From NCBI RefSeq assembly GCF_012163145.1, contig NZ_JAAVTX010000007.1, forward strand, positions 124,001 to 188,000: a DNA stretch of 64,000 bases. The letters run 5' to 3'. The DNA is from Falsiroseomonas frigidaquae (lineage in GTDB: Bacteria > Pseudomonadota > Alphaproteobacteria > Acetobacterales > Acetobacteraceae). The notes beneath the pieces are model-generated. The model was not told where the DNA came from. It made no database searches and saw nothing but the letters and a program-made list of their open reading frames with translations. Position 1 is the stretch's first letter, and every line of letters begins with the position of its first letter. The translations under genes and the position numbers were made by a program. Positions 10,294 to 48,695 of the stretch are shown one piece after another.

Positions 10294-10311
10294 TGGGCGC
10301 TGACGGGATCG
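10294..10311 (-). repeat. 18-bp copy of tRNA-Val 3' end (candidate attachment site)
   Basis: tgggcgctgacgggatcg here is identical, in the same orientation, to 48624-48641. That stretch covers the discriminator base, the 3' strand of the acceptor stem and the start of the T arm of tRNA-Val(TAC). The rest of the tRNA is absent. A direct repeat of a tRNA 3' end at the far side of an accessory block is the expected footprint of tyrosine-recombinase integration. It could instead be a tRNA gene fragment. Confidence 0.6.
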
Positions 10312-10570
10312 CACTGGCGGGCCGACATCCACGGCTGGTGAATGCAGACTTCTTCCCCACCTAACCGGGAGCCGACGCGGGTTGGGGGCGACCCGGGTAT
10401 CAGCGCGGCGGCGTCCCCTCTCGAAGACAGGCTTATGGGTGGGAGTGGTGCCCAGGCCGCATCCCTTTAAGACTCCTGCTCGCCCCCGGGACAATTTCCG
10501 GCCGCTGGTGCTTCCTGGCGCCTTGGCTCGCCAATCTCGGGCCACCAGCCGCCGAGCGCCCCCAGGGATA

Positions 10571-10790
10571 CATGTGTGGCCGAAGAGAAGGTCCGGCTGG
10601 TCGAGCAGACCATGCAGGAGGGCCTAACGTATACGGCGCCGCCCGGATTGGTGCCGCTTTCCGGAGCCTGGCGTTCCAGTGAAGGTGCCCCAAGGGAGAG
10701 GGAAGCCGCGGCAGGCGACAAGCCGCTTGGGGCTGCGAAGCGGTGATACCGGCGATTGCGGCGAAGGGCAGGTCCCGCCGTGTCTGGTCT
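10571..10790 (+). pseudogene. possible remnant of a transposase OrfA (IS3/IS66-like)
   Basis: One frame reads VAEEKVRLVEQTMQEGLT and, after a +1 shift, VYGAARIGAAFRSLAFQ, a stop in place of an expected Trp, then RRCPKGEG and later CEAVIPA. This order resembles the helix-turn-helix start of small IS3/IS66-type transposase subunits (EEK.RLVEETM.PG.TVS..AR..G...SL.F.WRR...EG). The frameshift and stop indicate decay. No terminal repeats or downstream catalytic subunit were found, so the call is tentative. Confidence 0.33.
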
Positions 10791-11058
10791 GTCAGCCGTG
10801 CCGTAACCCGCTCCAGCGCCGCTCTCGCCCACCGAGCCGGCGCCGGCCATCAACGCGTCGATCTCGCGGAGGCGCGTCAGCAGATCGTGCCTGGATTGGC
10901 ATGTCCGCCCCGCCCTCAGCGGGCGGGGGCTGCTTTCCTCTCATCTCCGGTGGGTCCCGTTGAGGAGAGTAGGTCAGCGGCACCGCCCGGGGGGTCCAGG
11001 CGATCAGTCTGGCAGTTGCCGCCTTTCCAAGGGCGCAAGGCTCCTTGGCAGGAGCCAT

Positions 11059-11097
11059 CGGCCTCGATCCAGCGGAGCATTTGCTGGATCGAGGCCG
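11059..11097 (-). terminator. strong hairpin just after the RTX gene
   Basis: A perfect 15-bp inverted repeat (11059-11073 with 11083-11097, 9-base loop; core gcctcgatccagc) begins 12 bases beyond the stop codon of the giant gene. Position and strength suggest transcript termination or 3'-end stabilisation. There is no T-run, so a purely intrinsic terminator is uncertain. Confidence 0.6.
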
Positions 11098-11108
11098 TAG
11101 TCGGCAGC

Positions 11109-14100
11109 CTACAGGATGAAGTCGCTGGCCTGCAGGTTGTGCGCCCCGGTGATCTCGATCTGGAAGTCGCGGGTGTTGCCCGCGTCCACACCGGCGATGA
11201 CGTAGGTGTTGCCGCCCAGCACGTAGCTCCACAGCTCGCCCGCCGCCGCGTCCATGTAGTTCGTGGTGGCGCCCTGGTAGACGAAGGACTGCTCCCCGCC
11301 CAGCAGCGTGTTCGCATCGAAGCCGGACAGGTCGATCAGGTCACCCGTGCTCCAATCCGTGATCACGTCGCGCCCCGTCGGCGTCGCCCGGCTGTCGCTC
11401 GCCTGGGTGTAGACGAACACATCCGCACCCTCGCCACCGGTCAGGATGTCCTTCCCGGCCCCGCCGAACAGCGTGTCGTTGCCCGCCGCGCCGCTCAGCG
11501 TGTCGTGGCCCGACCCGCCGTTCAGCACGTCATCCCCCGAGCTCCCGGCCAGCAGACCCGCGACACCCATGAAGTCGCTCACCTGCAGGTCTTGCACCCC
11601 GGTGATCTCGATCTGGAAGTCGCGGCCGATGCCCGCATCCACGCCGCCGATGACGTAGGTGTTGCCGCCCAGCACGTAGGACCACAGCTCACCCGCTGCA
11701 GCTTCCGTGTAGTTCGTCGTGGCACCGCGGTAGACGAAGGACTGCACCCCGCCGAGGCCCGTGTTCGCGTCGAAGCCGGACAGGTTGATCTGGTCCCCCA
11801 TGCCCCAATCCGTGATCACGTCGCGCCCCGTCGGCGTCGCCAGGCTGTCGCTCGCCTGGGTGTAGACGAACTGGTCCGCACCCTCGCCGCCCGTCAGCGT
11901 GTCGCGGCCCGAACCGCCGGTCAGCGTGTCGTTGCCGGCACCGCCGGTCAGCGCGTCGCGGCCCGAAGTGCCGGCCAGCAGGGCATTGACGCCCAGGAAG
12001 TCGCTGGCCTGCAGGCTGTGCTCGCCGGTGATCTGGATCTGGAAGTCACGGGTGGCACCCGCATCCACACCGGCGATGACGTAGGTGTTGCCACCCAGCA
12101 CGTAGGTCCACACCTCGCCTGCCGCTGCATCCATGTAGTTCGTGGTCGCCCCCCGGTAGACGAAGGACTGGAAGCCGCCGAGCACGGTGTTGGCATCGAA
12201 GCCGGACAGGTCGATCCGGTCGCCCATGCCCCAATCCGTGATCAGGTCGCGGTCGGTCGGCGTCGCCAGGCTGTCCGATACCGCCCCGTAGGCGAAGACG
12301 TCGGCACCCTCGCCACCGGTCAGGATGTCCTTCCCAGCGCCGCCGATCAGCGTGTCGTTGCCAGCACCGCCGACCAGGGCATTGGCCAGGCCATCGCCCA
12401 CCAGCACGTCGTCATGCGTCGAGCCTTCCAGGTTCTCGATGCTGAGGAACACGTCGCCCACCGCATCGCCCGCCGCCGACCGGGTCAGCGTCAGGTCGAC
12501 CACCACGCCGGCCAGCGCCGCGCGGTAGCTGGCGAAGTCGGTGCCCGCACCGCCGATCAGTTCGTCGGCGCCGGCACCGCCTTCCAGCGTGTCGTTGCCT
12601 TCGAAGCCCTGCAGCGAGTCATTGCCCGTGCCGCCCAGCAGGTCGTTGTCGGCCGCGTCGCCGCGGATGAAGTCGTTGCCGTCGGAGCCGATGACGTTCT
12701 CGATCCCGCTCAGCGTGTCGCCCTGGGCATCGCCCAGCGCCTGCACCTGGTCCTTCAGGTTGACGGAGACGCCGGCCGTGCTGCCGGAGTAATCCGCCCA
12801 GTCGATGCCGCCATTGCCGGTCAGCAGGTCGGCCCCGCTGCCGCCGGTCAGCGTGTCGGCAGCCGCCCCGCCGATCAGCGTGTCGTTGCCGGCGCCGCCG
12901 AGCAGCCAGCTGCTGCCGTTGTCGTTGCCGGTCAGCACGTTGCTGCCGGCATTGCCGACCAGGGCGATCTCGACGCCCTCGGCCAGGCCGGTCGCGTCGA
13001 TGTTCAGCGCCGTGGTGCCGGTGAGGTCGCCGGTGGCGTCGGAGGCGAGGACCACCTCGACCCCGGTGACATCGCCGAGGCTCAGCGTGGAAGCCGTGCC
13101 GCTGATGAAGCGGATGGCGTCGAGGCCTTCGCCGCCGCTGATCACCTCGCCGATGGCGTGGTCGGCCGCCGCGTCGATCAGGAACACGTCGTTCCCGGCG
13201 CCGCCCTGCAGCGTATCCGCACCGCCGCCGCCGGCGAGCGTGTCGTTGCCCGCGCCGCCAGACAGCAGGTTGGCGCCGTCGTCGCCGACCAGGAGGTCAT
13301 CATGGGCCGAGCCCGTGATGTTCTCGATCGCGCCCAGCAGGTCGCCCTCGGCATCGCCGCCACTGTTGGTGCTCGTGGCGAGGTTGATCGAGACCGCCTC
13401 GGCCGAGGCCGAGTAGTCCGCCGTGTCGATGCCGTCGCCGCCATCGAGCGTGTCGTTGCCCGCACCGCCGGCCAGCGTGTCGGCGCCGTCGCCACCGGAG
13501 AGGAGGTTGGCCGCGGTGGAGCCGGTGATCACGTCGTCCGCCGAGCCGCCATCGGCATGCTCGAAGCCCGTCACCGTCATGCTCTCGCCCACGCCCGGCA
13601 CGAAGGTCCCGGCGCCGAGGTCGATCGTCAGGCTGCGGGTATCGGTGGAACCGTCGATCAGGTCGCTGGTCCCGGTCGTGGCGCCCAGCGTCTCGATGTT
13701 CGACAGCGTGTCGACGCCGAGGACGCTCATGCCATCGTAGCGCGTCACCTCGCCCAGGTTGGTGTTGAACACGACGCTGCTGGCGGAAGCCGCGCCGTAG
13801 TCGACGACGTCATTGCCTTCACCACCATCCAGGCTGTTGTTGCCCGCGCCGCCATCCAGCGTGTCGGCACCATCGTTGCCCTGCAGGGTGTCGCTGCCAT
13901 CGCCGCCACCCAGCATGTTGGCTTCGGCGCTGCCATGGATGTCGTCGTTGCCCGAGCCGCCGATCGCGTTCTCGAAGCCGCTCAGCGTGTCGTCACCGTC
14001 ATCATGGCTGGCCAGGTTCATGCCGAGATGGACGAAGACACCGACGCTGTCCCACTCGTAGCTCACCGTGTCGTTGCCGGCGCCACCGATCAGCTGGTCA

Positions 14101-17100
14101 CCAGCCGCACCCATGACATCGTCAGTCCCGCGGCCGCTGATGAAGTCGTCGCCATCGCCGCCATCCAGCCGGTTGGCCTGACCGTCGCCCAGCAGCGTGT
14201 CGTTGCCCGAGCCGCCGAGCAGGTTCTCGATGCTGACGAAGACGTCCTCCGCCGCGTCGCCCGTGCTCTGCGACGCATCCAGCATGTCGATCTTCACGCC
14301 GTCGGTGGAGGTCGCGTAGTCCGCCGTGTCGTAGCCTTCGCCACCATCCAGCGTATCGGCACCGGCGCCGCCAACCAGCGTGTCGTTGCCCGCGCCGCCC
14401 ATCAGCAGGTTGGCCCCGGTATCGCCAGTCAGGCTGTCGTCATGCGCCGAGCCGGTCACGTTCTCGATGCTGCCGAGGCTGTCGCCCTGGGCGTGGCCGC
14501 CCCTGGCCGAGCTGGTGGCGAGATTGATCGTCACCGCCGCATCCGAAGAAGCGTAGGACGCCGTGTCGACCCCGGCGTCGCCAGACAGGACGTCACTGCC
14601 GGCCCCGCCTTCGATCGTGTCGTCGCCAGCACCGCCGACCAGCAGGTCGTTGCCCGCCAGGCCCTGCAGCAGGTTGTCCCCGTCATTGCCGGTCAACGCA
14701 TCGAAATAGATAGACCCACGCAGGCCTTCGATGGAGTTGTAGCTGTCGCGGCCCGACTCATCCGTCGCCCCGAAGCCTGCCGAGTTGCGGAAGCTCACCA
14801 GCGAGGCATTGACGGCCGAGGCGGCATTCTCGTAGCTCGCGATGTCGAAGCCATCGCCGCCATGCATGGCGTCCATCCCGACGCCGCCTTCCAGCGTGTC
14901 GTTGCCTTCCCCGCCGTACAGCGCGTCGGAACCGGCCAGGCCACGCAGGACATTGTCCTCGGCATTGCCATACAGCGCATCGGCGAAGACCGATCCCGTC
15001 AGGTTCTCGATGCTGTCATAGGTGTCGCCAAGCGCCTCACCCGTATTGGGGGAGTAGTTCGCCTGGATGCCGAAACCGCCGATCTGGAAATTGCCGAGCG
15101 CCGCGGTCACGCCGGACTTGGCATTGGCGTAGCTGGCCGTGTCGGTGCCTTCACCGCCGATCAGCTGGTCGTTGCCGATGCCGCCTTCCAGCGTGTCGTT
15201 GCCATCGCCGCCTTCGAAGACGTTGTCAGCGGCGTCACCGATCATCAGGTCGTTGCCGATGCCGGCGACCACATTCTCGATGGAGACCACCTCGTCGGTG
15301 CCGCCGCCATGCTCGATGTAGCCAAGGTCGAGGCGAACCTCGATCACCTGTTCCCGATCTTCGTAGACCGCCGTGTCGTTGCCCTCGCCGCCCAGCAGCA
15401 GGTTATTGCCGTCGCCGCCGATCAGCGTGTCGTCGCCGAAGCCTCCATCCAGGATGTCGTCACCAGACCTGCCCTCGAAGACGTTGTCGACATTGCTCCC
15501 GACACCGCTGACATCACCGATGACCCAGTCATCGCCGCTCGAGCCGACGACATGCTCGATCTCCGTCAGTACATGGCCCGCCGCTGCGCCACCGCTCTGC
15601 TGCAGCGGATCGAGCGAGATCACCACGCCCGCATCGAAGTTGCTCCCGGTGTAGCGCACCTGGTCGATGCCATCGCCGCCGATCAGCGTGTCTGCGCCCA
15701 GCGTTGCGTAGAAGCGGTCATCACCTTCGCCGCCATCCAGCAGGTTGGCTACGTCGCTGCCCCGCAGTGTGTCATCGTTGTTCGTGCCGATGACCCCCTC
15801 GATCGAGTAGAGGTCGTCGTCATCATCATATCCCAAATAATCAACATCGGCATCGCCGTCGTCGAGATCGACATCGAGCTCGCCCTCCTCGGCGCTGTAG
15901 TCGACGATGTCGAAGCCCTCGCCACCATAGATGGCGTCGTCCCCCTGGCCGCCCATCAGCGTGTCATCGCCAGCCCCGCCATTCAGCGTGTCGTCGCCAG
16001 CGCCGCCGGACAGCACATTGATCTCGCCGTCGCCGGTCAGAACGTCGCCTTCCGCCGAGCCCACCAGGTTCTCGATACCAACGAGCGTGTCACCCTCGGC
16101 GTCGCCACCCGTCCCCGTACCCGTCGAGAGATCGACCTGCACCGCGCCCGTCGATGCCGAATAGTCGGCGGTGTCCACGCCGCCAGCGCCGTTCATCCAG
16201 TCGGCGCCTGCCCCGCCCTCGAGCGTGTCGGCGCCGACATTGCCGAGCAGAACGTCGTTGCCCGTGCCGCCCTCGAGCAGGGCTGCGGGGGCATCGTTCT
16301 GGAACTGCGCGACACCGGTCGCGACCGCCGATTCATTGCCCACCGCATCACGCGACAGAATGTCGAACATGTTCAGGCCCATGCCGAGCCCAATCGGCAG
16401 CACCGGCGTACTCCAGCTGCCGTCCTGGCCAATTTCCAGCGTCGCCGTCTCCGACCCGCCGCCCAGCGGGCGCAGCACCAACGTAGCGCCCGCCTCGCCC
16501 GTTCCGGAAAGGATGAGCGAGCCCTCGTTCACCTCGATGCCCGTGAATGCCGGCACGGCGGGGGGCGTGTTGTCCACCGTATAGGTGCTTTCATCGTCAC
16601 CCGTCGGCGTCACGTCAGCAAAGGTCTGCTCTGCCTGATCCTCGATATTCTGCAGCACCGCGAAGGACAGCGTCACATCGGCCGTCACGGTGGCCAGGTC
16701 GCCGCCCGAAACCGTCACGTCATAGGCATTGCCACCGGCGGAGACGACGTTCGTCACGGTCGCAGTAGTCCCGGTCACCGTGAAGTCGGACGCGTCGATG
16801 TTCTGGACCGCCTCGCTAAGCGTCACCCGCCAGACCAGGACATCCGCATTCGTCGCTTCATCCGTGGGAGTCTGCCGTTCGATCGAGACCACCGTCGGCG
16901 GGGTCTCATCCGTCACCGTGACCGTGGCGCTGATGCCGGTGATGGTGCCGGTGGCGTTGACGCCGTCATCGACCAGCTGCGTGACGGTGATGACGCGGTC
17001 GCCGATCGTGGCGTTGCTGGTGAGGTTCTTGTAGCCGAGCGCGTCGACCAGGCTGCCCATGGCGGTATTGTCCAGGGCAAGGCCGGTCACGTCGATGGTG

Positions 17101-19463
17101 GCGGTGCCGTTGCTCACGGCGACCGAAACCCCGGCGTCGCCGCCGCTGACACCCAGGCCCGGAAGCAGGACGGTGGTGCCAGCCGCCAGCAGCACGTCCA
17201 CGCCTTCGATTACGATCGTCTCGTTGGCATCCACGATGCCGGAGACAGTGAACTGCAGGGAGGTGAAGACCTGCCCTACATCCACCACGCTGGCGGTGAC
17301 AGCGCTGAACAGATCCACAGGGTCGGTGGCGCCGCCGACAAAATCCGGCGTCCCGCCGGTCGCGACCAGCGTCGGCACCTCATCTGCCGGTTCGACCGTC
17401 ACCATGGCGCTGGCCGAGCGCATGGCGGTATTGACGTCGAAGCCCGCGGCGGTGGCGACGATGCTGACCGGGAAGCTGCCGCCATTATCCGTGCCGGAAC
17501 TGGTGACGTTGAAGACCGCCTTGTAGAGCGTGTTGGCGGCAATGATTCCGGTGATCGAGCCGGCAGTCTCCGAAAGGGTTGCAGGGTTGACCTCGTAAAG
17601 CGCGAAGTCGCTGTAGCTCCAACCCTCCGGCAAGCTCGGCGTGATGGTGACCATGGAGCCGACCAGACTGAGGCCCTGGTCCACACTGATCAGAAACTCC
17701 ACCTGCTGCGGCGTACCCGGCTCGAAGGTGATGGTCGGATCGATAGCCGTTGCCGTCAGGGCGTAGTTGGGTGCGGCGCTGTCGGCGATGGTGACGGTGC
17801 CGACGAGATTCACCTGGGTGGTGTTGAAGTCGACGGGGCCGTCATCGGTGATCGATTCGAGGACAATCGGCCGTACGGCGGTTTCGCCGGCGCTGAGCGC
17901 ACCGGTGCTGTTCGTGTAGGTGATTCCCTCGATGAATGTAACCGCATCGGCCGCGGTCAGCGCCAGGCCGGTCAGCGTGATGGTTGCGACGCCGGCGGTG
18001 AGGTTCACGTCGTAGGCGAATGGTCCAGAGGAACCGCTCTGCGTGGCCAGGGCGTAGGGGACCGAATTAATGGTCAGTATTTCGCCGGCCCCTGCAATCT
18101 GATGGACCTTCAGCACCATGCCGGTGATCAGCTGGTCGCTATCCACCACATCGACGGTCACATCCTGGAATACCGCAACGGCGGTGGAAGCCGCATCGCT
18201 TGCGGTTCCGCGGAACGCGTTCGCCGTCGCAACGGGCGGCGTCGGGCCGGTCGGCACCACCGTGACATTCAGCACGTTGGTCTGGCCGATACTGGCGGCG
18301 TCCATGCCATCCGGGGTCTGGATCGCATAGGTATCATTCGAGCCGGACGGATCGTTGTAGGCGACTGAAACGATTTGGTCAGTCACGACCGCCTGGTCCA
18401 GGACCAGGGTGACCGTCCCGGCAGGTCCATCGACCAGGACGCTGTTCACCGTAACGGGGTTACCCTCGACCATGACAATGAAGTTGCCGGCGTTTGCCGC
18501 AGGCAGGGAGGCAAGCGCTTCAGGATAGGTCAGCGTCAGGAACTGACCATTCACCTCGGCAGTTTCGAAGGTGAGAGGCCGGGGGCCCAGGACGGTGTAG
18601 ACAGGGTTGACGGTCTCGGCATCTTCGCCATCCGTGTCCTGGATCGCATAGGCATCATTGCCGCCGCTCGGATCGCTATAGGTGATGTCGATGACGTCGC
18701 CGGCCGTCAGAGCACCGCTGAAGGTCACCTTCACCGTGCTGCCGACCACCTCCACCGCCGAAACAGCCCTGTTGGTCCCGTTGATCCCCAGGAGGAAGGC
18801 GGAGATTTCCGGCGGGTTGGCGGCATCCAGCTCCCTGTCGAAGGCCAGCGTGAGGAATTCCTCGCCGACATATGCCGTCGTGCTGGAGTAGATCGGCCCA
18901 CCGAGCAGCACGCCACTGAACGTCTCGATGCGCAGCGCCTGCGTCGCCACCACGCCGCGGGTCCACTCCAGGTCCCAGTTGCCGCCCAGTTCCGCCGCAC
19001 CGGTCAAGCTGCGCGACGCGGCCAGATCGGCGCCCGTGATCTCCGCCAGATCCTCGAGGAAGGCCTCGCCGGCGCCGCTGGCGACCGAGCAGCTGTAGAT
19101 CAGGATGTCGCCATCGGCCGCCAGGCTGGCACCGATGCTGGCGAGCTCCGCCCGCCGCGCCGGCAGCGCCGCACGGTCCAGCGTGGTGCTGCCCAGCTGC
19201 ATCCCGCCGGCGAAGCCGTGGCTGAGGATGTGCAGGGCGGCGATGCCGTGGCGGCCGGACAGGCCCGCGACCATGGCGGCCAGGCCGTCCTGGCCCGGCT
19301 GGATCAGGATCGCCTCGATCCCGGCGGGCAGCGCATCGCGCAGGCTCTGCCACCCGGACACCGCGCAGTCGATGACGGCCACGGCCTGCCTCGCCGCACC
19401 GGCAGAATGGTCTGCCCCGGACTGGCAGGAATTGGTGCAGGTATCGGCTTGGATATCGGACAT
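11109..19463 (-). CDS. giant DUF4347 / SWM-repeat / RTX protein (putative type I secreted surface protein)
   Basis: 2784 residues from ATG 19463. Residues about 28-186 match a DUF4347 domain ([41 protein letters not shown]). Next come repeats of the SWM type ([32 protein letters not shown]), cadherin- or Ig-like segments ([20 protein letters not shown]) and an Ig-like module near 1000. From about 1061 to the end is a nearly continuous array of calcium-binding RTX nonapeptides ([11 protein letters not shown]) with interspersed DYSxSxxxVxVNL strands. Three long near-identical modules close the protein, ending LQASDFIL. No N-terminal signal peptide is seen, as usual for type I substrates that export through the C-terminus. 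No ABC/HlyD/TolC genes are in the window. The frame is open to a TTG at 19988, but that 175-residue extension looks non-coding. Likely roles are adhesion or surface layer; a cleavable enzyme activity is not apparent. Confidence 0.88.
11112..12335 (-). repeat. three long tandem C-terminal modules in the RTX gene
   Basis: Three direct repeats of about 430-450 bases each. Equivalent marker positions (the gtagttcgt element) fall near 11256, 11708 and 12135. Each encodes RTX nonapeptides, then ADxFxYxxxSDS, [18 protein letters not shown], SFVYxGATTNY, [10 protein letters not shown] and a DFQI(E/Q)ITG ending. High nucleotide similarity suggests recent duplication, and the array could expand or contract by recombination. 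Confidence 0.85.
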
Positions 19464-22930: not shown

Positions 22931-22974
22931 TGTTCTGCCGCCGCGTGGTGAATCCAAGGATTGCAGGTTACAGG

Positions 22975-25255: not shown

Positions 25256-25322
25256 CCACCTGTTGCCGGCTTCGTGGCGGCCCTGCTATCTCATCCTGCG
25301 GCATTAATTCCGAATTTGTGTT

Positions 25323-25351
25323 CCTGATCGTGCGGATGGCTGATCTATAAT
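25323..25351 (+). promoter_or_regulatory. candidate promoter before the ACP gene
   Basis: A perfect TATAAT lies at 25346-25351 in a locally AT-rich gap (25256-25385), 35 bases before the ACP start. The -35 region at the right distance (about 25323-25328) is poor. It suggests that the biosynthetic run from the ACP onward has its own transcript start. Confidence 0.45.
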
Positions 25352-25385
25352 TTGGGTTCGACGCGTTCATGGGCTGGAGCTGTTG

Positions 25386-36222: not shown

Positions 36223-36535
36223 CGGACTCAGCGTCGTCGGCGCAACGGCTCTCGTCAACAGCCTGCCGCACATCTCGCGCCACCAGATCTCGAATGCGGC
36301 CCCGCGTGCCATGCCCCGGCTCATGTGCCGCGCCTTGCCGAGGCGGCTCCGGGCCGCCTGGCAGCGATGCTCGTCGGAGCCAGGCATCATGCCATCCGCG
36401 TGAGCGGCTCCGGCTTCGCCGCGAGATCATGGGCTTGCCTGCACAGGTATGCTTAGTTGGGGCCTGATCCTCGCCTTCTGAAATCGAAGGCCGGACGACC
36501 CCAATCAGCAACCTCGTCGCGTTCTGGATCATGAA
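36223..36535. other. divergent intergenic region between halogenase-like and chemosensory genes
   Basis: 313 bases that should hold the promoters for the minus-strand halogenase-like gene and the plus-strand chemosensory operon. Part may be coding if the halogenase starts upstream at about 36324 or 36390. The segment 36440-36535 is less GC-rich than its surroundings. I see no convincing sigma-70 pair or large inverted repeat. Confidence 0.4.
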
Positions 36536-38464: not shown

Positions 38465-38480
38465 GGCCGTGCCCGGGCAA

Positions 38481-39920
38481 ATGGGCCACCGGCTTACGGT
38501 GCGGGCGGGCGGGGCGCGCCTGGCCATGGCGGCCAGCGGCGTTGCCGAGGTAATCGGCGCGCGGCAGATGACCCGCGTGCCGAACGGACCGCCGGGGCTG
38601 CTCGGCGTCATCCATCTGCGCGGCACCGTTCTTCCCGTCCTGTCGCTGCGCCAGATGCTCGACGCGGCCCAGCCTGCGGGAGCGGTGGAGCGTATCGTGG
38701 TGCTGCGCCACGACCCGCCGCTCGGCCTGGCGGTCGAGGCGGTCGAGGCGCTGCAGGCGGTCGAGCACGCCGGACCACTTCCCGAGGCCGGCCGGCTGCT
38801 GCTGGAACAGGCGGATGGCGGCACCTCGCTCGACCTGTCGGCAATGCTGGAGGCGCGGTTCGCGACGGCGTTTCGCGGTGCAGCGCGGCAGGCGCCGCAG
38901 CGCCCGGAGGCGGTGGCCGGCACCTCGGCAGCGGTCCGGCAGGAACAATCCTTCCTCGCCTTCACCCTGGCGGGGCAGGATTACGCGCTACCGCTTGAAA
39001 GCGTCGCGGAGGTCCTCGCCCTGCCTGCGGCGATCGCCACGCTGCCGCAGACCGATCAGGTGCTGCTGGGCGTCTTCATCCTGCGCGAGGCGGTACTCCC
39101 TGCCCTGTCGCTGCGGCTGCTGCTCGGCCTGCCGGATCGCCCTCGCCTGGGCTCCGAGCAGATCGTGGTGACGCATGTGGCCGGGCAGCGTATGGCCCTG
39201 GTCGTGGACCGCATCAGCGCCATCCTGCGCGTCGCGCCGGACCGGGTGGGCCCGGCACCGAGCCTGTTCAACAAGGGCGGCGGCGAGGCCCGCATCGGCC
39301 ATGTGCTGCGCCAGCCAGATGGGCGCGGCCTGGTGGCGATCCTTTCGCCCGCCTGCCTCCTCGCCGATGACCGGGTCGCGCGGCATCTGGTGGCGGCAGA
39401 CCAGCAGGAGGACGAGAGCATGGCGACCGCGGCTTCCACCGGGGCCCGGGCCGAGGGGCGCGAACGCTTCCTGGTGATCCGCCTCGGCAACGAGAGCTAC
39501 GGGCTGCCGATCGGCGCCGTGGACGAGGTGGTGCGCCTGCCCGGCACGCTGACACGCCTGCCGCGGGCGCCAGCCTATGTGCAGGGGGTGCTGAACCTTC
39601 GCGGCCGGGTGATTCCGGTGATCGACCAGCGCCGCCGCTTCGCGGTGCCGGGCGAAGGCGAGACGCGCGGGCGGATCGTCGTCCTCACCCTCGGCAAGCT
39701 TCAGGCCGGCTTCGCGGTGGATGCGGTCACGGAGATCCTGCAAGTCGAGCCTGGCGAGATCCTCCCGTCGCCGGACCTGTCGGAGGCGGGTGCCGGCCAG
39801 TTCGACCGCGCCCTCGAGCGCGATGGCCGGGTGATCCTGCTGATCGATCCGGCCGCCCTGCTGAGCCTGGCGGAGGCGGACCTGCTGCGGGACCTGACGG
39901 CCAACCCCTCCCCCCCGTGA
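38481..39920 (+). CDS. cheW: triple CheW-domain scaffold protein
   Basis: 479 residues containing three CheW modules in a row. Module 1 (about 1-110) has LLGVIHLRGTVLPVLSLRQM. Module 2 (about 150-300) starts FLAFTLAGQDYALPLESVAE and contains LLGVFILREAVLPALSLRLL. Module 3 (about 325-475) starts FLVIRLGNESYGLPIGAVDE and contains VQGVLNLRGRVIPVIDQRRR. I use ATG 38481; GTG 38469 is an alternative. It could bridge several CheA and receptor tips, fitting the double-tip receptor upstream. Confidence 0.88.
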   Translation: MGHRLTVRAGGARLAMAASGVAEVIGARQMTRVPNGPPGLLGVIHLRGTVLPVLSLRQMLDAAQPAGAVERIVVLRHDPPLGLAVEAVEALQAVEHAGPLPEAGRLLLEQADGGTSLDLSAMLEARFATAFRGAARQAPQRPEAVAGTSAAVRQEQSFLAFTLAGQDYALPLESVAEVLALPAAIATLPQTDQVLLGVFILREAVLPALSLRLLLGLPDRPRLGSEQIVVTHVAGQRMALVVDRISAILRVAPDRVGPAPSLFNKGGGEARIGHVLRQPDGRGLVAILSPACLLADDRVARHLVAADQQEDESMATAASTGARAEGRERFLVIRLGNESYGLPIGAVDEVVRLPGTLTRLPRAPAYVQGVLNLRGRVIPVIDQRRRFAVPGEGETRGRIVVLTLGKLQAGFAVDAVTEILQVEPGEILPSPDLSEAGAGQFDRALERDGRVILLIDPAALLSLAEADLLRDLTANPSPP

Positions 39921-41002
39921 TCAAGATCCTGATCGTCGACGATTCTGCTCTGATGCGCCGGGTGCTGGGTGCGGCATTCGAGCAGGATGGCGGCTTCTCG
40001 GTGGCTTTCGCGCGCGACGGCGCGGAAGCGCTGGTCCAGCTGCATGCCTTCCGGCCGGAGGTGATCACGCTGGATGTGCAGATGCCCGGCATGGGGGGCC
40101 TGCGCTGCCTCGACCGGATCATGGTCGAGCGGCCCTGCCCGGTGGTCATGGTGTCCTCCATGACCACGCAAGGCGCCGCGGCGACGCTGGAGGCGCTGGA
40201 CCTGGGCGCGGTGGATTTCGTGCCGAAGCCGGGCGGCGTCGTCTCCCTCGCCATCGATGGCTTCGCACCAATCCTCATCGAGAAGGTGCGCGCCGCCAGC
40301 CAGGTCCGCATCCGCCCTTCGCACAGGCTGGCGGAGCGCCTGCGGGCGCGAGGGCCCGCGCCGCCGCAGCCACCCGCACCGCCCGCCGCCGCGGCCATCG
40401 CCAGCGGCGGACCGGCGGAGGCGCTTCCGGGCCTGGTGATCATCGGCACCTCCACCGGCGGGCCACCGGCGCTGGAGGCGGTGCTGTCGCAGCTGCCGGC
40501 CAGCTTTCCCTGGCCGATCCTGGTCGCCCAGCACATGCCGGCCGCCTTCACGGACTCGCTCGCCCGGCGCCTCGATGGCCTGTGCGCGCTGCAGGTGAAG
40601 GAGGTTACGCGGCCGATGCCGATTGAGGCCGGCTACGTCCACATCGCCCGCGGCGATGCGGACATGATCGTCAGCCAGCGCACCGCCGGCGCCATCGTGC
40701 TGCCGACGCCGGCGAATCCCGCCCTTCGCTGGCATCCCAGCGTGGATCGCCTGGTCAGCAGCGCCATGTCACAGCTGCCACCGCAGCGCCTCATCGGCAT
40801 CCTGATGACCGGCATGGGCAATGACGGCGCGGCATCCATGGCCGCCCTGCTGCAGGCCGGCGGGCGCACCATCGCCGAAGCCGAGGAAACGGCAATCGTC
40901 TGGGGCATGCCCGGCGCGCTGGTCAAGGCGGGCGGGGCCGGCATCATCGCGCCGCTGGAGGCGATCGCGGCGCGGCTGGCCGGGCTGGTCGCAACCCCAT
41001 GA
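39917..41002 (+). CDS. cheB: chemotaxis protein-glutamate methylesterase CheB
   Basis: 361 residues starting at GTG 39917 (GTGA overlap). The N-terminal receiver domain has the acidic pair in ILIVDDS, phospho-acceptor Asp53 in TLDVQMPGMGG and a lysine in FVPKPGG. A Pro/Ala-rich linker (about 145-165) joins it to the esterase domain with the Ser of IGTSTGGPPAL, the His of AQHMP and the Asp of MTGMGNDGA as the catalytic triad. It demethylates or deamidates receptor glutamates. Confidence 0.95.
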   Translation: MIKILIVDDSALMRRVLGAAFEQDGGFSVAFARDGAEALVQLHAFRPEVITLDVQMPGMGGLRCLDRIMVERPCPVVMVSSMTTQGAAATLEALDLGAVDFVPKPGGVVSLAIDGFAPILIEKVRAASQVRIRPSHRLAERLRARGPAPPQPPAPPAAAAIASGGPAEALPGLVIIGTSTGGPPALEAVLSQLPASFPWPILVAQHMPAAFTDSLARRLDGLCALQVKEVTRPMPIEAGYVHIARGDADMIVSQRTAGAIVLPTPANPALRWHPSVDRLVSSAMSQLPPQRLIGILMTGMGNDGAASMAALLQAGGRTIAEAEETAIVWGMPGALVKAGGAGIIAPLEAIAARLAGLVATP

Positions 41003-41844
41003 GCGACCCCGGCAGCGCGTCCCTGTCCGCCGCGGAACTGCAGCGCCTCAGCGCTTTCCTGTACCGCCAGACCGGCATGCTGTTCGGCGAGACCAAGCGC
41101 TACTACATTGAGCGACGGCTGGCCGACCGCTACGCCGCAACGGGGATCAGCGATTTCGCCACCTATTTCGGCCGCCTGCGCACCGATGCCGCGGAGCGCG
41201 AGACGCTGGTCAACGCCTTCACCATCAACGAAACCTATTTCTACCGCGAGGAACACCAGCTGGCCTGCCTGAGCCGGTCGCTGCTGCCGGAGCTGATCAC
41301 CACCCGGCAGCCTGGCGACAAGATCCGGATCTGGTCGGTTCCCTGCTCCACAGGGGAGGAGGCCTATTCCATCGCCATCTGGCTGCTGGAGAACTGGCGG
41401 CTGGTGGATGCCTACCATGTCGAGATCATCGGATCGGACATCGACACGCGCGTGCTGGAGGCGGCGCGGGAGGGCCTGTATGGGGAGCGCGCCCTGTCGC
41501 GGCTTCCGCCGGGGCTGCGCGATGCCTATTTCGAGCCGGCCAGGCGGCACCAGCGGCGGATCATCCAGGACCTCCGGGAATCGGTTAGCTTCAGCCCGGC
41601 CAACCTGATCGATGCGGCGAGCATGGCGGTGCATGGCGTCTTCGACGTGATCTTCTGTCGCAACGTGCTCATCTACTTCGATGAGGAGTCGCGGCTGCTC
41701 GCGGCGGGGAACCTCTTCGACCGGCTGGCGCCCGCTGGCTTCCTCTGCCTCGGCCACACCGAATCCATGAGCCGCATCAGCCAGCGCTTCGACGTTCGCC
41801 GCTTCGAGGACGCCACCGTGTTCCAGCGACCGCCCGCCACATGA
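40999..41844 (+). CDS. cheR: chemotaxis protein methyltransferase CheR
   Basis: 281 residues; ATG overlaps the cheB stop (ATGA). The N-terminal helical domain contains YRQTGMLFGETKRYYIERRL. The catalytic domain contains FTINETYFYRE, the SAM-binding SVPCSTGEEAYSIAI and FDVIFCRNVLIYFDEE, with LGHTESM near the C-terminus. Methylates receptor glutamates, opposing CheB. Confidence 0.95.
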   Translation: MSDPGSASLSAAELQRLSAFLYRQTGMLFGETKRYYIERRLADRYAATGISDFATYFGRLRTDAAERETLVNAFTINETYFYREEHQLACLSRSLLPELITTRQPGDKIRIWSVPCSTGEEAYSIAIWLLENWRLVDAYHVEIIGSDIDTRVLEAAREGLYGERALSRLPPGLRDAYFEPARRHQRRIIQDLRESVSFSPANLIDAASMAVHGVFDVIFCRNVLIYFDEESRLLAAGNLFDRLAPAGFLCLGHTESMSRISQRFDVRRFEDATVFQRPPAT

Positions 41845-43748
41845 CCCAGGACCTGATGGCCCAATTCCTGGTCGAGGGGCGCGAACTGGTCGCCGAGGCC
41901 GCTCGCGGACTGTCGGCGCTGGCCCTGCGGCGGGACGATGCGGCCGCGATGGAGGCCTGCTTCCGCGCCCTGCACACGCTGAAGGGCTCGACCGGGCTGT
42001 TCGACCTGGAGGCCATGGGCCAGCTGCTGCATGCCGCAGAGGATCGGCTCGCCGCCCTTCGCGACGGCCAGGCCAGCACGCCCGGCGACATCGACGCGCT
42101 GATCGAGATGGTTGACCAGGTGGATCGCTGGTTCGATGCGCTGGAGCGCGACGGCAGGCTTCCGGCCGATGCGGGCTCCATCGGCCAGGCTGCGGCACAC
42201 CGCATCCGCGACGCCGGCGGCGCGCCGGTAATGGCCGAGGAGCAGCCCGCGCAACCATCCTGGCGCATTCCGCCGGATTTCGATGGGCTGTCCGGCATCG
42301 CCATTCGCTACGTGCCGCGCCCGGATTGCTACTACTTCGGCGATGACCCCATCGCCATCACTGCGGCGATTCCCCAGGTGACGGCACTCCGCCTCTCGGC
42401 GCGGGTGCCATGGGATTCGTCCGAGCCTTACGATCCGTTCACCTGCAACCTCGTCATCGAGGCCGTCTCGGCCGCCGGGCGGGCGGAGGTCGAGGCGGGC
42501 TTCCGGCTCGTTGCGGACCAGGTGGCCTTCGCCGAGCTCGTCCCGGCCGCGCAGGCCGGGTCGGCGGGTGGCGGGCCCGCTCGGCGGACCTTGCGCGTCG
42601 ATGCGGCGCGGCTCGACCGGCTGGCGGATCTTGCCGACGACCTCGTCATCGCGAAGGGCGGCCTGGCCGAACTCGCCGCCCAGGCCGAATCCCTGCCTGG
42701 CGGGCACGCGCTCGGCCAGGCCCTGCGCCTCCGGCAGGCGCGGCTCGACCGCCTCGCCGGGGATCTGCATGCGACGGTCGGACGGGTCCGGCTGGTGCCG
42801 CTTGCACCGCTATTCGCGCGGTTTCCCCGATTGGTGCGCGACATCGCACGATCGCTCGGCAAGAAGGCCGAGCTGGTGGTCGAGGGGGGCGATGTCGAAG
42901 TCGACAAGGCGTTGGTGGACGCGCTGTCCGATCCGCTGCTGCACGTCCTGCGCAACGCGCTCGACCACGGCATGGAGGAAGCCTCGACCCGCAGGCGGGC
43001 AGGCAAGGCGGAAGCTGGCAGCATCCGCCTCGCCGCCCGCGTCGAGGGCGACCAGGTTGTCATCGAGGTCGCGGATGATGGCGCCGGCATCGATGCCGCG
43101 ACCATCCGGGCATTGGCCGTGAAGCGAGGCGTGCTGACGCAGGAGGATGCCGCGCGGCTGGACGACGTGGCGGCGATCGACCTCATCTTCGCGCCGGGGC
43201 TGTCCACCGCGGCGGCTGTCACGACGCTCTCGGGCCGCGGCGTCGGCATGGATGTGGTGCGATCCGCCGCGGCGAGCCTCGGCGGCCGGGTCACCGTCAC
43301 CTCCGCGGCGGGACGGGGAACGCAGGTGCAGTTCCGCCTGCCGGTCGCGATGACGCTGATCCAGATCCTGGTCGTCGCCTGCGGCGAAGAACGCTACGGC
43401 CTGCCCCTGGACGCGGTGGTCGAGACGGCGCGCCTGGCCCCGGGCCGGGTCGTCCCCATCAGGGCCGGATGGGCCTTTCAGCTTCGCGACCAGGTGCTGC
43501 CATTGGTCGGCCTGGGGGAGCTGGTCGGCACGCGGCGGGCGGCGCTGGCGGAATCCCAACGGGTCGTGATTGCGAAGGTACGTGGAGAGCCAATAGCCTT
43601 CGCGGTGGATGCATTCGTCGACCGTCTGGATATCGCCTTGCGCCCGATGAACGGTCTGCTGGCCCATGCACCGGGCATGCTGGGCACGACACTCCTGGCG
43701 GATGGCAGCGTGCTGATGATCCTGGATCTGGCGGAGCTTGTCGCATGA
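41841..43748 (+). CDS. cheA: chemotaxis histidine kinase CheA
   Basis: 635 residues, ATGA overlap with cheR. The HPt domain (about 1-110) has the phospho-His in LHTLKGSTGLFD. Residues about 150-240 form a separate domain (RYVPRPDCYYFGDDPIAI...DPFTCNLVIEAVS), apparently replacing a standard P2 domain. Dimerisation follows near 250-310. The ATPase has NALDHGMEE (N box), VADDGAGID, GLST and GRGVGMDVV. The C-terminal CheW-like domain is about 510-635. One HPt only and no receiver domain. Core kinase of this array. Confidence 0.94.
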   Translation: MTQDLMAQFLVEGRELVAEAARGLSALALRRDDAAAMEACFRALHTLKGSTGLFDLEAMGQLLHAAEDRLAALRDGQASTPGDIDALIEMVDQVDRWFDALERDGRLPADAGSIGQAAAHRIRDAGGAPVMAEEQPAQPSWRIPPDFDGLSGIAIRYVPRPDCYYFGDDPIAITAAIPQVTALRLSARVPWDSSEPYDPFTCNLVIEAVSAAGRAEVEAGFRLVADQVAFAELVPAAQAGSAGGGPARRTLRVDAARLDRLADLADDLVIAKGGLAELAAQAESLPGGHALGQALRLRQARLDRLAGDLHATVGRVRLVPLAPLFARFPRLVRDIARSLGKKAELVVEGGDVEVDKALVDALSDPLLHVLRNALDHGMEEASTRRRAGKAEAGSIRLAARVEGDQVVIEVADDGAGIDAATIRALAVKRGVLTQEDAARLDDVAAIDLIFAPGLSTAAAVTTLSGRGVGMDVVRSAAASLGGRVTVTSAAGRGTQVQFRLPVAMTLIQILVVACGEERYGLPLDAVVETARLAPGRVVPIRAGWAFQLRDQVLPLVGLGELVGTRRAALAESQRVVIAKVRGEPIAFAVDAFVDRLDIALRPMNGLLAHAPGMLGTTLLADGSVLMILDLAELVA

Positions 43749-44008
43749 CGGTCCGGCTCGATGGTGCCGTGCTCCGGCTGGAAGGCTCCTGCCACCTGGA
43801 AGATGCAGAGTCCCTGACGGCCCTGCTGCAGACCAGCGGTGTCAGTCTGGTTGATCTTTCGGCCTGCCAATCCCTGCATGGCGCGGTCGTGCAGGCCCTC
43901 CTTGCCCTCGGGCCCCGCGTCGAGGGCATACCCGCATCGCCGTTTCTCAGGGATCTGCTGCTTCCTGCCCTGCTGGTGAAGAGACAGGCCAAGCCATCCA
44001 ACTTATAG
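43745..44008 (+). CDS. small STAS-like protein
   Basis: 87 residues; ATG overlaps the cheA stop (ATGA). The pattern is short beta strands (VRLDGAVLRLEG), a helix, then LVDLSACQSLHGAVVQALLAL. This resembles the STAS/anti-anti-sigma core, in which the residue after the DLS strand is often a phosphorylated Ser or Thr; here Ser, Ala, Cys and Gln follow. Its place inside the operon suggests a regulatory or scaffold role. Identification is by fold pattern only. Confidence 0.6.
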   Translation: MTVRLDGAVLRLEGSCHLEDAESLTALLQTSGVSLVDLSACQSLHGAVVQALLALGPRVEGIPASPFLRDLLLPALLVKRQAKPSNL

Positions 44009-44053
44009 TGGCTCCGCGGTTTCCATGTGCCGCGAACTACAGGAGTACTTTTC

Positions 44054-44437
44054 ATGGACACAACGGTGCTGATCGTCGACGATAGCAAGCTGGCCCGCAT
44101 CGTCGTCGGCAAGGCGATCGCCGCGCTGCAGCCTGAATGGGTGCGTATCGAGGCGAGCAATGCGGATGAAGCGGTCGCGGCCGTGAATGCCCAGTCGGTA
44201 AACCTCGCCATCATCGACTTCAACATGCCGGGCCGCGACGGACTTGCCCTGGCGGAAGAATTGCGGGCGCGGTTCCCGGCCATGCCGCTCGCGGTGGCGA
44301 CAGCCAATGTTCAGGACGAGATCGTCGCCCGTGCCCGCGCGGCGAATGCGAGCTTCATTGCCAAGCCGGTTACGGAGGAGGGGATCCGTGGCTTCATCTC
44401 CGGTGCGGCGCTGCGGCTTCGGCCCGCCGCGCGATGA
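44054..44437 (+). CDS. cheY: CheY-type response regulator
   Basis: 127 residues from ATG 44054 with AGGAG upstream. This is the only gene of the operon core preceded by a gap (45 bases) and its own strong ribosome site. Single receiver domain: VLIVDDS acidic pair, phospho-acceptor Asp in AIIDFNMPG, Thr/Ala in VATAN, and Lys in FIAKPVTEE. No output domain, so it acts by binding a partner. No flagellar motor genes are in the window. Confidence 0.9.
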   Translation: MDTTVLIVDDSKLARIVVGKAIAALQPEWVRIEASNADEAVAAVNAQSVNLAIIDFNMPGRDGLALAEELRARFPAMPLAVATANVQDEIVARARAANASFIAKPVTEEGIRGFISGAALRLRPAAR

Positions 44438-45072
44438 CGGCCCAGGCGGCCACATTGGAGGATATGGAGCGGGACGCCCTCACCGAGTTGGTCAATATTG
44501 GCGTCAGCCGCGCCGCTGTCAGTCTTCGCAAGATGGTGGGCCAGCAGGTTCTGCTCTCGGTTCCCTCGCTGGAAGTCGTTTCCCGCAGCGGCGCCATCAC
44601 CCTGATCCGGGAGCGGGAGTACGGCCAGATGGTCGCCGTGCGCCAGGATTTCGACGGCGCCTTTTCCGGCCGCGCACTTCTGATCTTTCCCGAAAGCAAC
44701 AGCCTGGCGATGGTCCGCGCCGTGGCCGGCGAATCCCTCACCCTGGAGGAGGCTGCCGCGATCGAGAACGAGGCCTTGGCGGAAACCGGCAACATCGTGC
44801 TCAACAGCTGCCTCGCCACCATGGCGAACATGCTGAAGCAGCCCCTGACCATGTCGCTGCCCGAGGTGCTGCGCAGCAACGGGTCGTTGCTGTTCGAATC
44901 ACGAAGGCCCGAGACCGATGGCGGCATCGTGCTTTTCCTCTACATCAACTTCGCCATCAACAACCACGACATCCGCGGCTACATCTCCATGCTGATGGAC
45001 CTGCCCTCGATCCAGGCGCTGCGGCTGCTGATCTCCGAATTCATCCGGCAGGTCATGGGCGAAGAGATCTAG
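44434..45072 (+). CDS. cheC: CheC-family CheY-P phosphatase
   Basis: 212 residues; ATG overlaps the cheY stop. Both phosphatase signatures (D/E-x3-E-x2-N...P) are intact: DALTELVNIGVSRAAVSL followed by P, and ENEALAETGNIVLNSCLATM followed by P. The enzyme would dephosphorylate the CheY encoded just before it. Its presence in a proteobacterial operon without CheZ gives a signal-termination step. Confidence 0.87.
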   Translation: MTAQAATLEDMERDALTELVNIGVSRAAVSLRKMVGQQVLLSVPSLEVVSRSGAITLIREREYGQMVAVRQDFDGAFSGRALLIFPESNSLAMVRAVAGESLTLEEAAAIENEALAETGNIVLNSCLATMANMLKQPLTMSLPEVLRSNGSLLFESRRPETDGGIVLFLYINFAINNHDIRGYISMLMDLPSIQALRLLISEFIRQVMGEEI

Positions 45073-45114
45073 CCTTGGCAGAACCGCGCCGGCTGTGCTG
45101 CGTTGGTTCCGGTC

Positions 45115-47892
45115 ATGCTTAATCGCGATCAGACCGCAGCGCCGTCGTTACGGCCTTCGAACGACGTGGGACGGGCAGAGGCGCTGGAGCGCCTGTCGGC
45201 CATTGCGGGCCCGTGGCTGGAGATCCTCGGCAAGTCCGGCGTAGCCCTCACCGCGACGGATGCACGGGCACCCGGCGACACCATCATCTTCGCCAATGCA
45301 GCCTTCGAGGCACTGACGGGCTTTGCCTCCGCGGAGATCGTTGGCCGCAGTTCCGGCTTCCTGCACGCGGAGGACACGGATCCCGCCACCCTTGCCCGCC
45401 TCCATTCCGCGATCGCGCAGAACGGCTCGGCCACCGCGGACATCCTGAACAGGCGCCGGGACGGCGCCAGCTTCTGGAATCGCGTGAGCATCACCACGAT
45501 CCGCGATGCCGAGGGCTTGCCCGCCTTCCACCTGGCAAGCCAGGCCGACGTCACGAGCGAGTATGTCCTGGAAAGCCGGAACCAGGAGTTGCGGCGAAGC
45601 CGCCAGAAGCTGGACGAGGCGCAGGAACGCCTGCGGCTCGCCCAGGTCTCGGCGGCCGCGGCTGGCGCCTGGGAATGGGATATCGCGACCAACCGCCTGA
45701 TCGTGGATGCGCGCTTCGCCAGGATCTATGGCCTGGAGCCTACACCGGCCGATCTGCCCGCCGCCGCCTTCTTCAAGCCGATCCATGAAGACGACCGCAT
45801 GCGGATGCGCATTGCCGTCGCCGGGGCGCTGCAGGGCGCCGAGGTCTTTGCCCGTGACTTCCGGGTGGTTGTCCAGGGCGAGGTGCGCTGGGTTTCGGCG
45901 CGCGGCCGCACCTATCTCGATGCCGAGGAGAAGCCGCTGCGCTTCGCCGGCGTGCTGACCGACATCACCGAGCAGCGCAAGGTCGAGGAGCGCCTGTACA
46001 TTGCCCAGACCGCCGGTGGCGTAGGGTCTTTCGAATATCTCAGCGGCTACGGCACGGCGGATGTGTCCGGCGAATTCTGCCGTCTGCTGGGCCTGCGTCC
46101 GGCCCAGAGCCTGCCGGTCCGCACGATCAATTCCGTCGTCCACCCCGAGGACCAGGCGATCATCCAGAATCGTGACGGCCAGATGGCGGCCGGCACTGCG
46201 TTCCACGAATGCCGGATCACGCGCGCCGACACGGGCGAGGAGCGCTGGCTTGCCTCGCGCGGCGAGTACCGGCGCGCGGTTGGTGGCGGGGTCATCTTCG
46301 CCGGCGTCATCTATGACGTGACGACGATCAAGCGCTCCGAGGCACAGCTACGGGTGTTGACGGAGAGCCTTGAGGAACGCGTGGAGTTGAGGACGCAGGA
46401 GCGCGACAGGGTGTGGAACCTTTCGCGCGACCTGCTGAACGTCATCGGCCCGGACGGACTGCAGAAATCCGTCAATCCCGCCTGGACCGCGTTGCTCGGC
46501 TTCGAGCGGTCGGAACTCGTCGGCTCCTCGATGGATCGGCTGGTGCATCCGGATGAGCTGAATAACCTCACCTTCCAGCTTGCGGCACTTCGGCGCGGCG
46601 AATCGATTTCGGATTTCGACATACGCCTGCGCAGCAAGGACGGGTCCTACCGCTGGGTCAGCTGGACCGGCATCGCGGAGGATGGAACGATCTACGGGAT
46701 CGGCCGCGACGTTACACAGCGCAAGCTCCTCGAGGACCAGCTCCGCCAGAGCCAGAAGATGGAAGCTGTCGGCCAGCTGACAGGTGGCCTTGCCCACGAC
46801 TTCAACAACATGCTGACCGGCATCATCGGGGGCATCGACATGGCGCGGCGGCGTATCAGCCAGGGCCGCCTGCATGATGTCGACCGCTATCTCGATGCGG
46901 CCGTGAAATCCGGCCAGCGCGCGGCTGCCCTGACGCATCGCCTTCTGGCCTTCTCACGCCGGCAGACCCTCGATAGCCGCCCTCTCGATGTGAGTACCCT
47001 GGTGCAATCGGTGGAGGACCTGCTCCGCCGATCGCTTGGCGAAGGGATACAGCTGGCGATTCACGTCGGCCCTGAGCTGTGGCCCGCGGTCGCCGACGAA
47101 AGCCAGCTGGAAAGCGCCATCCTCAACCTGGCGATCAACGCCCGTGACGCGATGCCGGATGGCGGGCAGCTGACGATCACGCTGCAGAATTCCCCGCTCT
47201 CGGCCACTGACCTGAGCGATGCCGACGTCGCGACTGCCGGTGATTTCGTCGAGATCTGTGTGAAGGACACGGGTTGCGGAATGGCTCCGGAGGTCCTCGC
47301 GCGGGCCTTCGACCCCTTCTACACGACCAAGCCGGTGGGCCAGGGAACCGGCCTGGGCCTGTCGATGATCTACGGTTTCGTTCAGCAATCCCGTGGTCAC
47401 ATCAAGATAGTCAGCGAGACGGGCAAAGGCACCGAGATCCGTCTTTTCCTGCCTCGCTTCCAGGGCGAGTTGTCGACCGGCGACGAATCGATCGCCGGCC
47501 CGGCAGTGCTTGGAACCGGCGAGACCGTGCTGGTGGTCGAGGACGATCCCTCGGTAAGGCTGGTCGTGCTGCAGGTCCTGGGGGAACTGGGCTACGATGC
47601 CATCGAGACCGAGGGCGGGAAGGAGGCGGTGCCCATCCTGCAATCCCGGCGACGAATTGACCTGCTGGTCACGGATGTCGGCCTGCCAGGCCTGAACGGC
47701 CGCCAAATCGCGGAAATTGCCCGGGAACATCGCCCGGACCTGCCTGTCTTATTCATGACCGGCTACGCCAAGGACGCTTCCGAGCAGAGCCAGTTCCTGA
47801 TGGAAGGGATGGAGATCATCAAGAAGCCGTTCTCGGTGGATGATTTCGGTCAGCGGATCGATTTCATACTGCGAGGTTCGGCCAGGGACTGA
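45115..47892 (+). CDS. multi-PAS hybrid histidine kinase with a Cys-less LOV-like N-terminal domain
   Basis: 925 residues from ATG 45115; soluble, no membrane helix. Domain order: a LOV/PAS-like domain (about 38-145) with [21 protein letters not shown] and [12 protein letters not shown]; a second PAS (about 175-290); a third (about 295-415); a coiled coil and a fourth PAS (about 440-540). Then a HisKA domain with phospho-His in [11 protein letters not shown] (about 560), HATPase ([28 protein letters not shown]) and a C-terminal receiver (VLVVEDDPS, Asp in VTDVGLPG, Lys in KKPFS). In true LOV domains the motif is GRNCRFLQ; here Ser80 stands where the photoreactive Cys would be. It follows cheC by 42 bases and probably belongs to the same transcript. 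Confidence 0.88.
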
Positions 47893-48620
47893 TGCTCCTC
47901 CGCGGCCCGAGGCCTCGCCAGATCTACCAGGCGAGAGCGAGGCTGGCTGCGAGGAGGCGTCCATCATGTCCCCACGCCAGGGCCGGCCATCCGGCATGGC
48001 CTGCTCAGCCAGGCGCCAGCCGCCAACCGTACGGCCACCTCGACCGACCCTGCGCAGCCGGACGGGCAAGGGTCGCTGCTGGCTGCGGCCTCGGCACAGC
48101 CTGATCCTCGCCATGAGAAGCGGAACGCGCTGCTGCTGGATCTCCGCGTCGCGCTGGTGGCATGCCGAGCAGCGGGATCGGAGGGCGGAGAATAGTCCGA
48201 GCCTTGCAGCCGCCAATCGGACCATTGGTGCCCGCGGCGATGCGGAGGCACGCCCAGCAGCTCAGCGCGGCCCACAGGCGGCCTGGATCGACCAGCCGGG
48301 GGCGGCGTGTAGAGCCTGACCCTGGCTGCCACTGCAAGCGCGTCTGACGCGTTCAGGGGCAGCAGCGTACCCACCAGGGAAGGGCTGCCAGCCGGGGGGG
48401 GCGTCTGCAGCGTCTCGCTGAGGCAGCACCGCGTGCTCCTCCGCCTCGAGACGCATCCACTCGCGCATGGTGCCGTTCTGCGGCCAGCAACGCCGTCGTC
48501 GAGGAACACCCCTACCCGCCCCTGCCGGCCAGGCGGATCAGGTGAAGATGCCGCCGCGCCCGGTCTGGTTTGCGGCCGGCTGCCCCGCGGCAGCCAGAGG
48601 GCGGCTTCCCGGGGAATCTA
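47893..48620. other. gene-poor stretch next to tRNA-Val
   Basis: 728 bases with no gene I can support. Open frames on both strands overlap and show no domain; composition is Arg/Pro/Ala-rich as expected of chance frames at this GC. It includes a run of eight Gs at 48394-48401. It mirrors the other gene-poor edge at 10067-11058 and may be decayed mobile-element DNA. Confidence 0.5.
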
Positions 48621-48695
48621 TGGTGGGCGCTGACGGGATCGAACCGCCGACCACCTGTGTGTAAAACAGGCGCTCTACCGCTGAGCTAAGCGCCC
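48621..48695 (-). tRNA. tRNA-Val (anticodon TAC)
   Basis: Minus-strand cloverleaf. Acceptor GGGCGCT pairs with AGCGCCC, the D arm is TAGCTCAGCGGTAGAGC, and the anticodon stem CCTGT/ACAGG encloses loop TTTACAC with anticodon TAC. The T arm contains GCGGTTCGATCCCGT and the discriminator is A. CCA is encoded (tgg at 48621-48623). Located between hupB and the accessory block. Confidence 0.97.
48624..48641 (-). repeat. tRNA-Val 3'-end segment repeated at 10294-10311 (candidate attachment site)
   Basis: These 18 bases cover the discriminator, acceptor 3' strand and start of the T arm. They recur in the same orientation 38.3 kb away beside tRNA-Asp. The tRNA remains complete, as when an element carries or restores the 3' end on integration. 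Confidence 0.6.

Follow-up and report, generated by a model that had tools for sequence, protein, structure and literature searches.

A putative stranded genomic island with an aryl-polyene-type cluster at the 3' end of tRNA-Val in Falsiroseomonas frigidaquae

What placed some 38 kb of DNA between two tRNA genes that adjoin each other in relatives? Here, we analyzed a window of 64,000 nucleotides from Falsiroseomonas frigidaquae (C17:124001-188000, contig NZ_JAAVTX010000007.1) within an assembly of 6,082,652 bases (6.08 Mb) and 19 contigs. The original prediction for this DNA proposed that the block between tRNA-Val(TAC) and tRNA-Asp(GTC) is a genomic island, and that it interrupts the order hupB, tRNA-Val, tRNA-Asp and nuoA. 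This order is indeed seen in relatives, where the proteins are presumably those of hupB, lon and nuo genes. With a probability of about 0.88, we consider that an element integrated at tRNA-Val by a crossover within 18 bp, gave the gene a new 3' end encoding CCA and later lost its integrase, so that its cargo was left as a stranded island. The following features frame the locus.

9990..10066, minus strand: tRNA-Asp(GTC), found with ARAGORN; adjoins tRNA-Val in relatives
10294..10311, minus strand: distal copy of an 18-bp direct repeat, with an outer flank like the sequence downstream of CCA-less tRNA-Val genes in relatives (search and alignment)
48624..48641, minus strand: tRNA-side copy of the repeat (attachment site, att), in the 3' part of tRNA-Val(TAC) (window and genome search)
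48621..48695, minus strand: tRNA-Val(TAC), found with ARAGORN; its encoded CCA at 48621-48623 is probably derived from the element

The two copies of the 18-mer, TGGGCGCTGACGGGATCG, are exact and lie on the same strand with their starts 38,330 bp apart, as predicted for the 3' end of tRNA-Val and the vicinity of tRNA-Asp, from which the distal copy is separated by 227 bases. On tRNA-Val, the repeat extends from the 3' side of the T-arm through the 3' strand of the acceptor stem up to and including the discriminator base, and it ends just before CCA; with three further bases the copies are still 20/21 identical. The 18-mer is not frequent elsewhere, since the whole genome holds exactly two copies, both at the island ends (backwards control, 0). 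A search of the window at ≤3 mismatches gave no third copy; shuffled sequences at the same threshold had a mean of 0.42 matches, with at least two matches in 7/100 shuffles, and both real matches are exact. We also surveyed 299 sampled family genomes, including our own, with a degenerate att pattern, which was present in 124 and occurred twice in five (backwards control, 0). Only in the window's genome does such a pair share a single contig; in the other four, each pair is split over separate contigs, with tRNA-Val and tRNA-Asp close together in three (G136, G183 and G295) and tRNA-Asp on another contig in G035.

The relatives provide the empty site. The DNA of either side was searched in 60 genomes, followed by locating the tRNAs on the loci found; the genus sample comprised 16 genomes, our own included. 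In 7/15 genus relatives, the closest one among them, the gap between tRNA-Val and tRNA-Asp is only 145–545 bp (G002, 317; G003, 545; G004, 405; G006, 375; G011, 145; G012, 214; G014, 466 bp), so the block is not shared by all relatives. Each of these loci has a single copy of the 18-mer, that of G012 with two differences. The gap is 43–391 bp in 12/20 of the family genomes from outside the genus in this set, and the empty site predicted for the window's strain would measure 227 bp.

The same gap contains different insertions in four further genus relatives (G001, 2005; G008, 2241; G007, 4743; G009, 4483 bp), and small gene sets are common to the pairs G008 and G001, and G009 and G007. Judging from the translations, the first pair presumably carries a Sel1-repeat-like and a secreted protein, and the second presumably tricarboxylate-transporter-like genes. 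Outside the flanks, blastn shows only a few short matches between these four loci and the window. The locus is non-contiguous in the last four: contig ends interrupt it nearby in G013 and G015, and G005 carries different sequence at either side (2.6 and 4.8 kb), including a transporter-like gene beside tRNA-Asp that resembles the G007/G009 gene. In G010 the locus seems rearranged, with tRNA-Val (C18:272557) and tRNA-Asp (C8:857353) deep inside different large contigs. Could the repeat then be a coincidence, or the by-product of some other rearrangement that separated the two tRNAs? The four insertions, none of which has a second same-strand 18-mer at ≤4 mismatches, and the dispersed tRNAs of G010 speak for such a scenario. 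However, we regard it as very improbable in view of an 18-mer that is exact and unique, sits at an exact position on the tRNA in the same orientation, retains the old flank at its distal copy and is accompanied by a changed tRNA 3' end.

This last point gives the event a direction. In 14/15 genus relatives (the exception is G015) tRNA-Val has no encoded CCA; the window's gene carries CCA after the discriminator base, followed by sequence unlike that of the relatives. The distal copy, read on the tRNA strand, continues with TTCTC (GAGAA on the forward strand) as in the closest relative, G002, to which positions 10275-10314 (40 bp, repeat included) are 85% identical by blastn; the part of the gap near tRNA-Asp matches G002 as well. 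Because the distal flank is CCA-less as in relatives and tRNA-Val has CCA plus new sequence, we read the distal copy as what was formerly the tRNA 3' end, and the current tRNA end as that of the element. In the proposed course of events, a mobile element with the same 18 bp in its attachment site would have entered the interval between the two tRNAs by site-specific integration into the 3' part of tRNA-Val(TAC), presumably through the usual tyrosine-recombinase reaction. The crossover within the 18 bp would have turned the old 3' end, together with its CCA-less flank, into the distal repeat at 10294, and the tRNA gene would have stayed intact with a new, element-borne 3' end encoding CCA. The integrase would have been lost since, stranding the island with its present cargo, which may share one history: the RTX gene, the aryl-polyene-type cluster with its halogenase-like gene, and the chemosensory operon. 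Somewhat less firmly than the integration itself, we propose that the element turned tRNA-Val(TAC) from CCA-less to CCA-encoding, and that a mobile element thus probably altered the way in which a host tRNA acquires its 3' end.

Encoded CCA was, however, rejected as a general insertion mark, and insertion is not supported as a general route of CCA gain: across 59 loci from 58 relatives, with four short-contig loci set aside, tRNA-Asp was missing nearby in 2/15 CCA-encoding versus 14/40 CCA-less loci (p 0.18). In G015, the contig with tRNA-Val ends ~200 bp past the tRNA, and another contig shows an AAA ATPase domain protein after tRNA-Asp; this locus is possibly a second, independent island.

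The block itself is organized as follows.

10312..11108, no strand: gene-poor distal edge (DNA, stop-free stretch and Pfam searches)
11109..19382, minus strand: gene for a large RTX protein with DUF4347 and SWM repeats (Pfam)
20702..34662, no single strand: aryl-polyene-type cluster (Pfam, NCBIfam and locus comparison)
34915..36390, minus strand: FAD-dependent halogenase-like gene (Pfam, NCBIfam)
36536..47892, plus strand: chemosensory operon (Pfam and locus comparison)
47893..48620, no strand: gene-poor tRNA-proximal edge (DNA, stop-free stretch and Pfam searches); no integrase recognised

An integrase gene is usual in tRNA-integrated islands, where the tRNA-proximal edge is a common place for it, and is lost in decayed ones. 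Consistent with the original prediction, no recognisable gene was found at either edge and no integrase is visible: PF00589 (tyrosine integrases), the only recombinase family searched genome-wide, has 14 matches in the genome at E ≤1, none of them on C17. In eight genomes, no listed PF00589 place shares a contig with an att copy; G010 has two such places on its tRNA-Asp contig (C8), >350 kb away. The Pfam search of 30 open reading frame (ORF) translations from the block found no integrase, relaxase, transposase, conjugation or mobilisation family. Among stop-free stretches (≥45 residues at the edges), 10/50 were given to Pfam at E ≤10, namely 8/26 from the edges and 2/24 from 19386-20701; the best matches of these ten non-coding stretches reached only E 0.057 and 0.093, with nothing better than E 0.057 at the edges. 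Searching the DNA of both edges against the own genome returned short matches only (best E 0.0245 and 0.0051). A transposase-like remnant, as originally proposed for one edge, is not significantly supported: tblastn of 10543-10683 against plasmids hit nine records, five of which are annotated as transposases (three of the IS3 family), but at a non-significant E of 0.2 to 8, though a decayed remnant may still lie there.

What was found is thus a block bounded by a direct repeat of a tRNA 3' end, an empty site in relatives and a distal repeat with the old flank. The block is filed as an island remnant because neither the genome search for PF00589 nor Pfam of the edge stretches placed an integrase gene within it; relaxase, conjugation and mobilisation genes, which would mark an integrative conjugative or mobilizable element, were likewise not recognised in the 30 translations. 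On these sequence grounds, it is best read as a stranded island, an island remnant and not a mobile element. According to PMC9897764, tRNA-integrated genomic islands likewise have a complete tRNA gene at one end, a 3' fragment repeat at the other and an empty site in relatives; unlike those described there, the window's island has no recognised integrase or transfer gene, and its tRNA went from CCA-less to CCA-encoding. The literature matches listed include no paper on this island, which is no proof that none exists.

Several observations weigh against integration by such an element. Beside the distal copy, the middle of the gap gives only a weak alignment with relatives (z 2.8 for G002 and 1.2 for G003). 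Encoded CCA varies across the family without a link to insertion and, for this reason, is by itself no proof of an event. Pfam searches of the ORFs and selected stretches recognised neither an integrase nor any other mobility gene in the block. The guanine-plus-cytosine (GC) content of the modules (67, 72 and 69%) is close to that of the flanks (66 and 68%), and the value of the polyene module is ordinary for such a cluster (71–75% in three relatives). Finally, the chemosensory module is inconspicuous, because its 4-mer distance to the pooled flanks of 0.155 compares with 0.174 between the left and right flank. The corresponding distances are 0.286 for the RTX and 0.241 for the polyene module, and 0.099 for a control stretch of the own genome. 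Base composition was therefore discarded as proof of foreign origin, the values being too close to those of the flanks.

The island as such stands, and the question shifts to how its modules came together. The cluster opens with a polysaccharide deacetylase gene on the plus strand, followed by GT2 and acyltransferase genes on the minus strand. The plus strand then carries genes for two methyltransferases, MipA, an acyl carrier protein (ACP), the unassigned ORF 25820-26179, an AMP-ligase, a FabA-like protein and an LpxL-like acyltransferase, and further a LolA-like protein, MMPL, ketoacyl synthase, a Ketoacyl-synt_2 protein, the unassigned ORF 33509-33940 (presumably a dehydratase) and a FabG-like reductase. 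With the ketoacyl synthase, a second synthase-like protein, FabG-like reductase, FabA-like dehydratase, ACP, AMP-ligase, MMPL and LolA-like protein together, the cluster is by gene content of the predicted aryl-polyene type, a pigment type. The halogenase-like protein, which extends the module to 20702-36390, scores 100 bits with PF04820 (Trp_halogenase; cut-off 21), and 197.6 bits with the NCBIfam model CmlS, below its cut-off of 900.

For comparison, a stretch was fetched around each of 63 polyene loci with a ketoacyl synthase. The 11 core genes occur in the window's order in 31/63 loci, and a related halogenase-like gene lies near the polyene genes in 44/63, in the window's orientation in 13. 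The whole order from GT2 to the halogenase-like gene, MipA set aside, is found in 12/63 loci (MipA is present in five of these 12), including Paeniroseomonas aquatica, Siccirubricoccus deserti, Belnapia and Roseococcus. The ketoacyl synthase is 81% identical to those of P. aquatica and Siccirubricoccus soli versus 75% to that of its genus-mate G010, the only other of the 16 genus genomes with the cluster's MMPL gene. As the synthase is closer to species outside the genus and MMPL occurs in 2/16 genomes, the data tentatively favour a gain of the polyene module from outside the genus. A similar cluster is found on a plasmid of Roseomonas haemaphysalidis (NZ_CP061178.1:398505-404432; 68.4% DNA identity over 74% of the query), and therefore such clusters can sit on plasmids. 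PMC8776678 already reports polyene clusters with a probable halogenase in Acetobacteraceae and a synthase tree broadly congruent with the family, which suggests mostly vertical descent there. Like the clusters described there, that of the window combines a ketoacyl synthase, an adenylate-forming protein and transport proteins with a probable halogenase, but it lies inside a tRNA-Val island, and among the 15 genus relatives its MMPL gene is present in G010 only.

The chemosensory operon encodes an MCP, a triple CheW, CheB, CheR, CheA, a response regulator, a CheX/CheC-like protein and a PAS histidine kinase with receiver; apart from the kinase, this set resembles that of alternative-function chemosensory operons. 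Complete operons occur at other loci in G003 and G014. In G014, a protein of 1,927 residues that combines NIDO, Calx-beta and RTX domains is encoded upstream of it (L185:423-6203); in G003, the neighbouring ORFs inspected include no large RTX gene. Because 2/3 operons inspected keep a large RTX protein nearby, a role in surface attachment may be guessed, and no more; the RTX/DUF4347 protein of the window is presumably adhesin-like. Its first 330 residues matched nothing in the 63 polyene loci or the other loci fetched, with no whole-genome search made.

It is conceivable, though rather unlikely, that the operon is native to the genus and was relocated into the island, perhaps along with the RTX gene. 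In comparison with G003, its eight genes show 54–71% identity at fourfold sites, near the 55–79% of five core genes, and the G014 operon adjoins another large RTX protein. However, CheA matches of >45% identity are confined to G003 and G014 among the 15 genus relatives, and the operon is more diverged from that of G014 than the core genes are (42–60% versus 59–74%).

Alternatively, a smaller element may have entered tRNA-Val, with the RTX, polyene and chemosensory modules added later by other recombination and the integrase deleted. Such stepwise growth is compatible with the same outer scar, and it agrees with the separate loci of the operon in G003 and G014, the differing 4-mer make-up of the modules and the finding that, within the stretches fetched, neither the chemosensory operon nor the RTX N-terminus accompanies any polyene locus (0/63). 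Exceptions to the last point are a weak kinase match in L135 and a short MCP match in L111, a Rubritepida metagenome-assembled genome (11571; 67% over 57 residues), a few kb past the halogenase-like gene and with no other operon gene. On the other side, the block contains no third att-like copy at ≤3 mismatches and hence no sign of tandem growth by site-specific insertion, and no transposase was recognised among the cargo ORFs or the ten non-coding stretches searched. We consider stepwise growth and single arrival about equally likely, the former a strong contender. The prediction that the modules came as one or more insertions is supported for the island as such, with a gain from outside the genus favoured for the polyene module only.

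Altogether, integration of an element at tRNA-Val is an ordinary and well-known kind of event, with a scar that is unusually clear as to which end is new, and the locus may serve as a clean example in which an encoded CCA marks the new end of an island. It illustrates how a tRNA gene can become the site of a polyene cluster of patchy occurrence in the genus (MMPL in 2/16 genomes), and it marks the gap between tRNA-Val and tRNA-Asp as a place where lineages of the genus hold different cargo.

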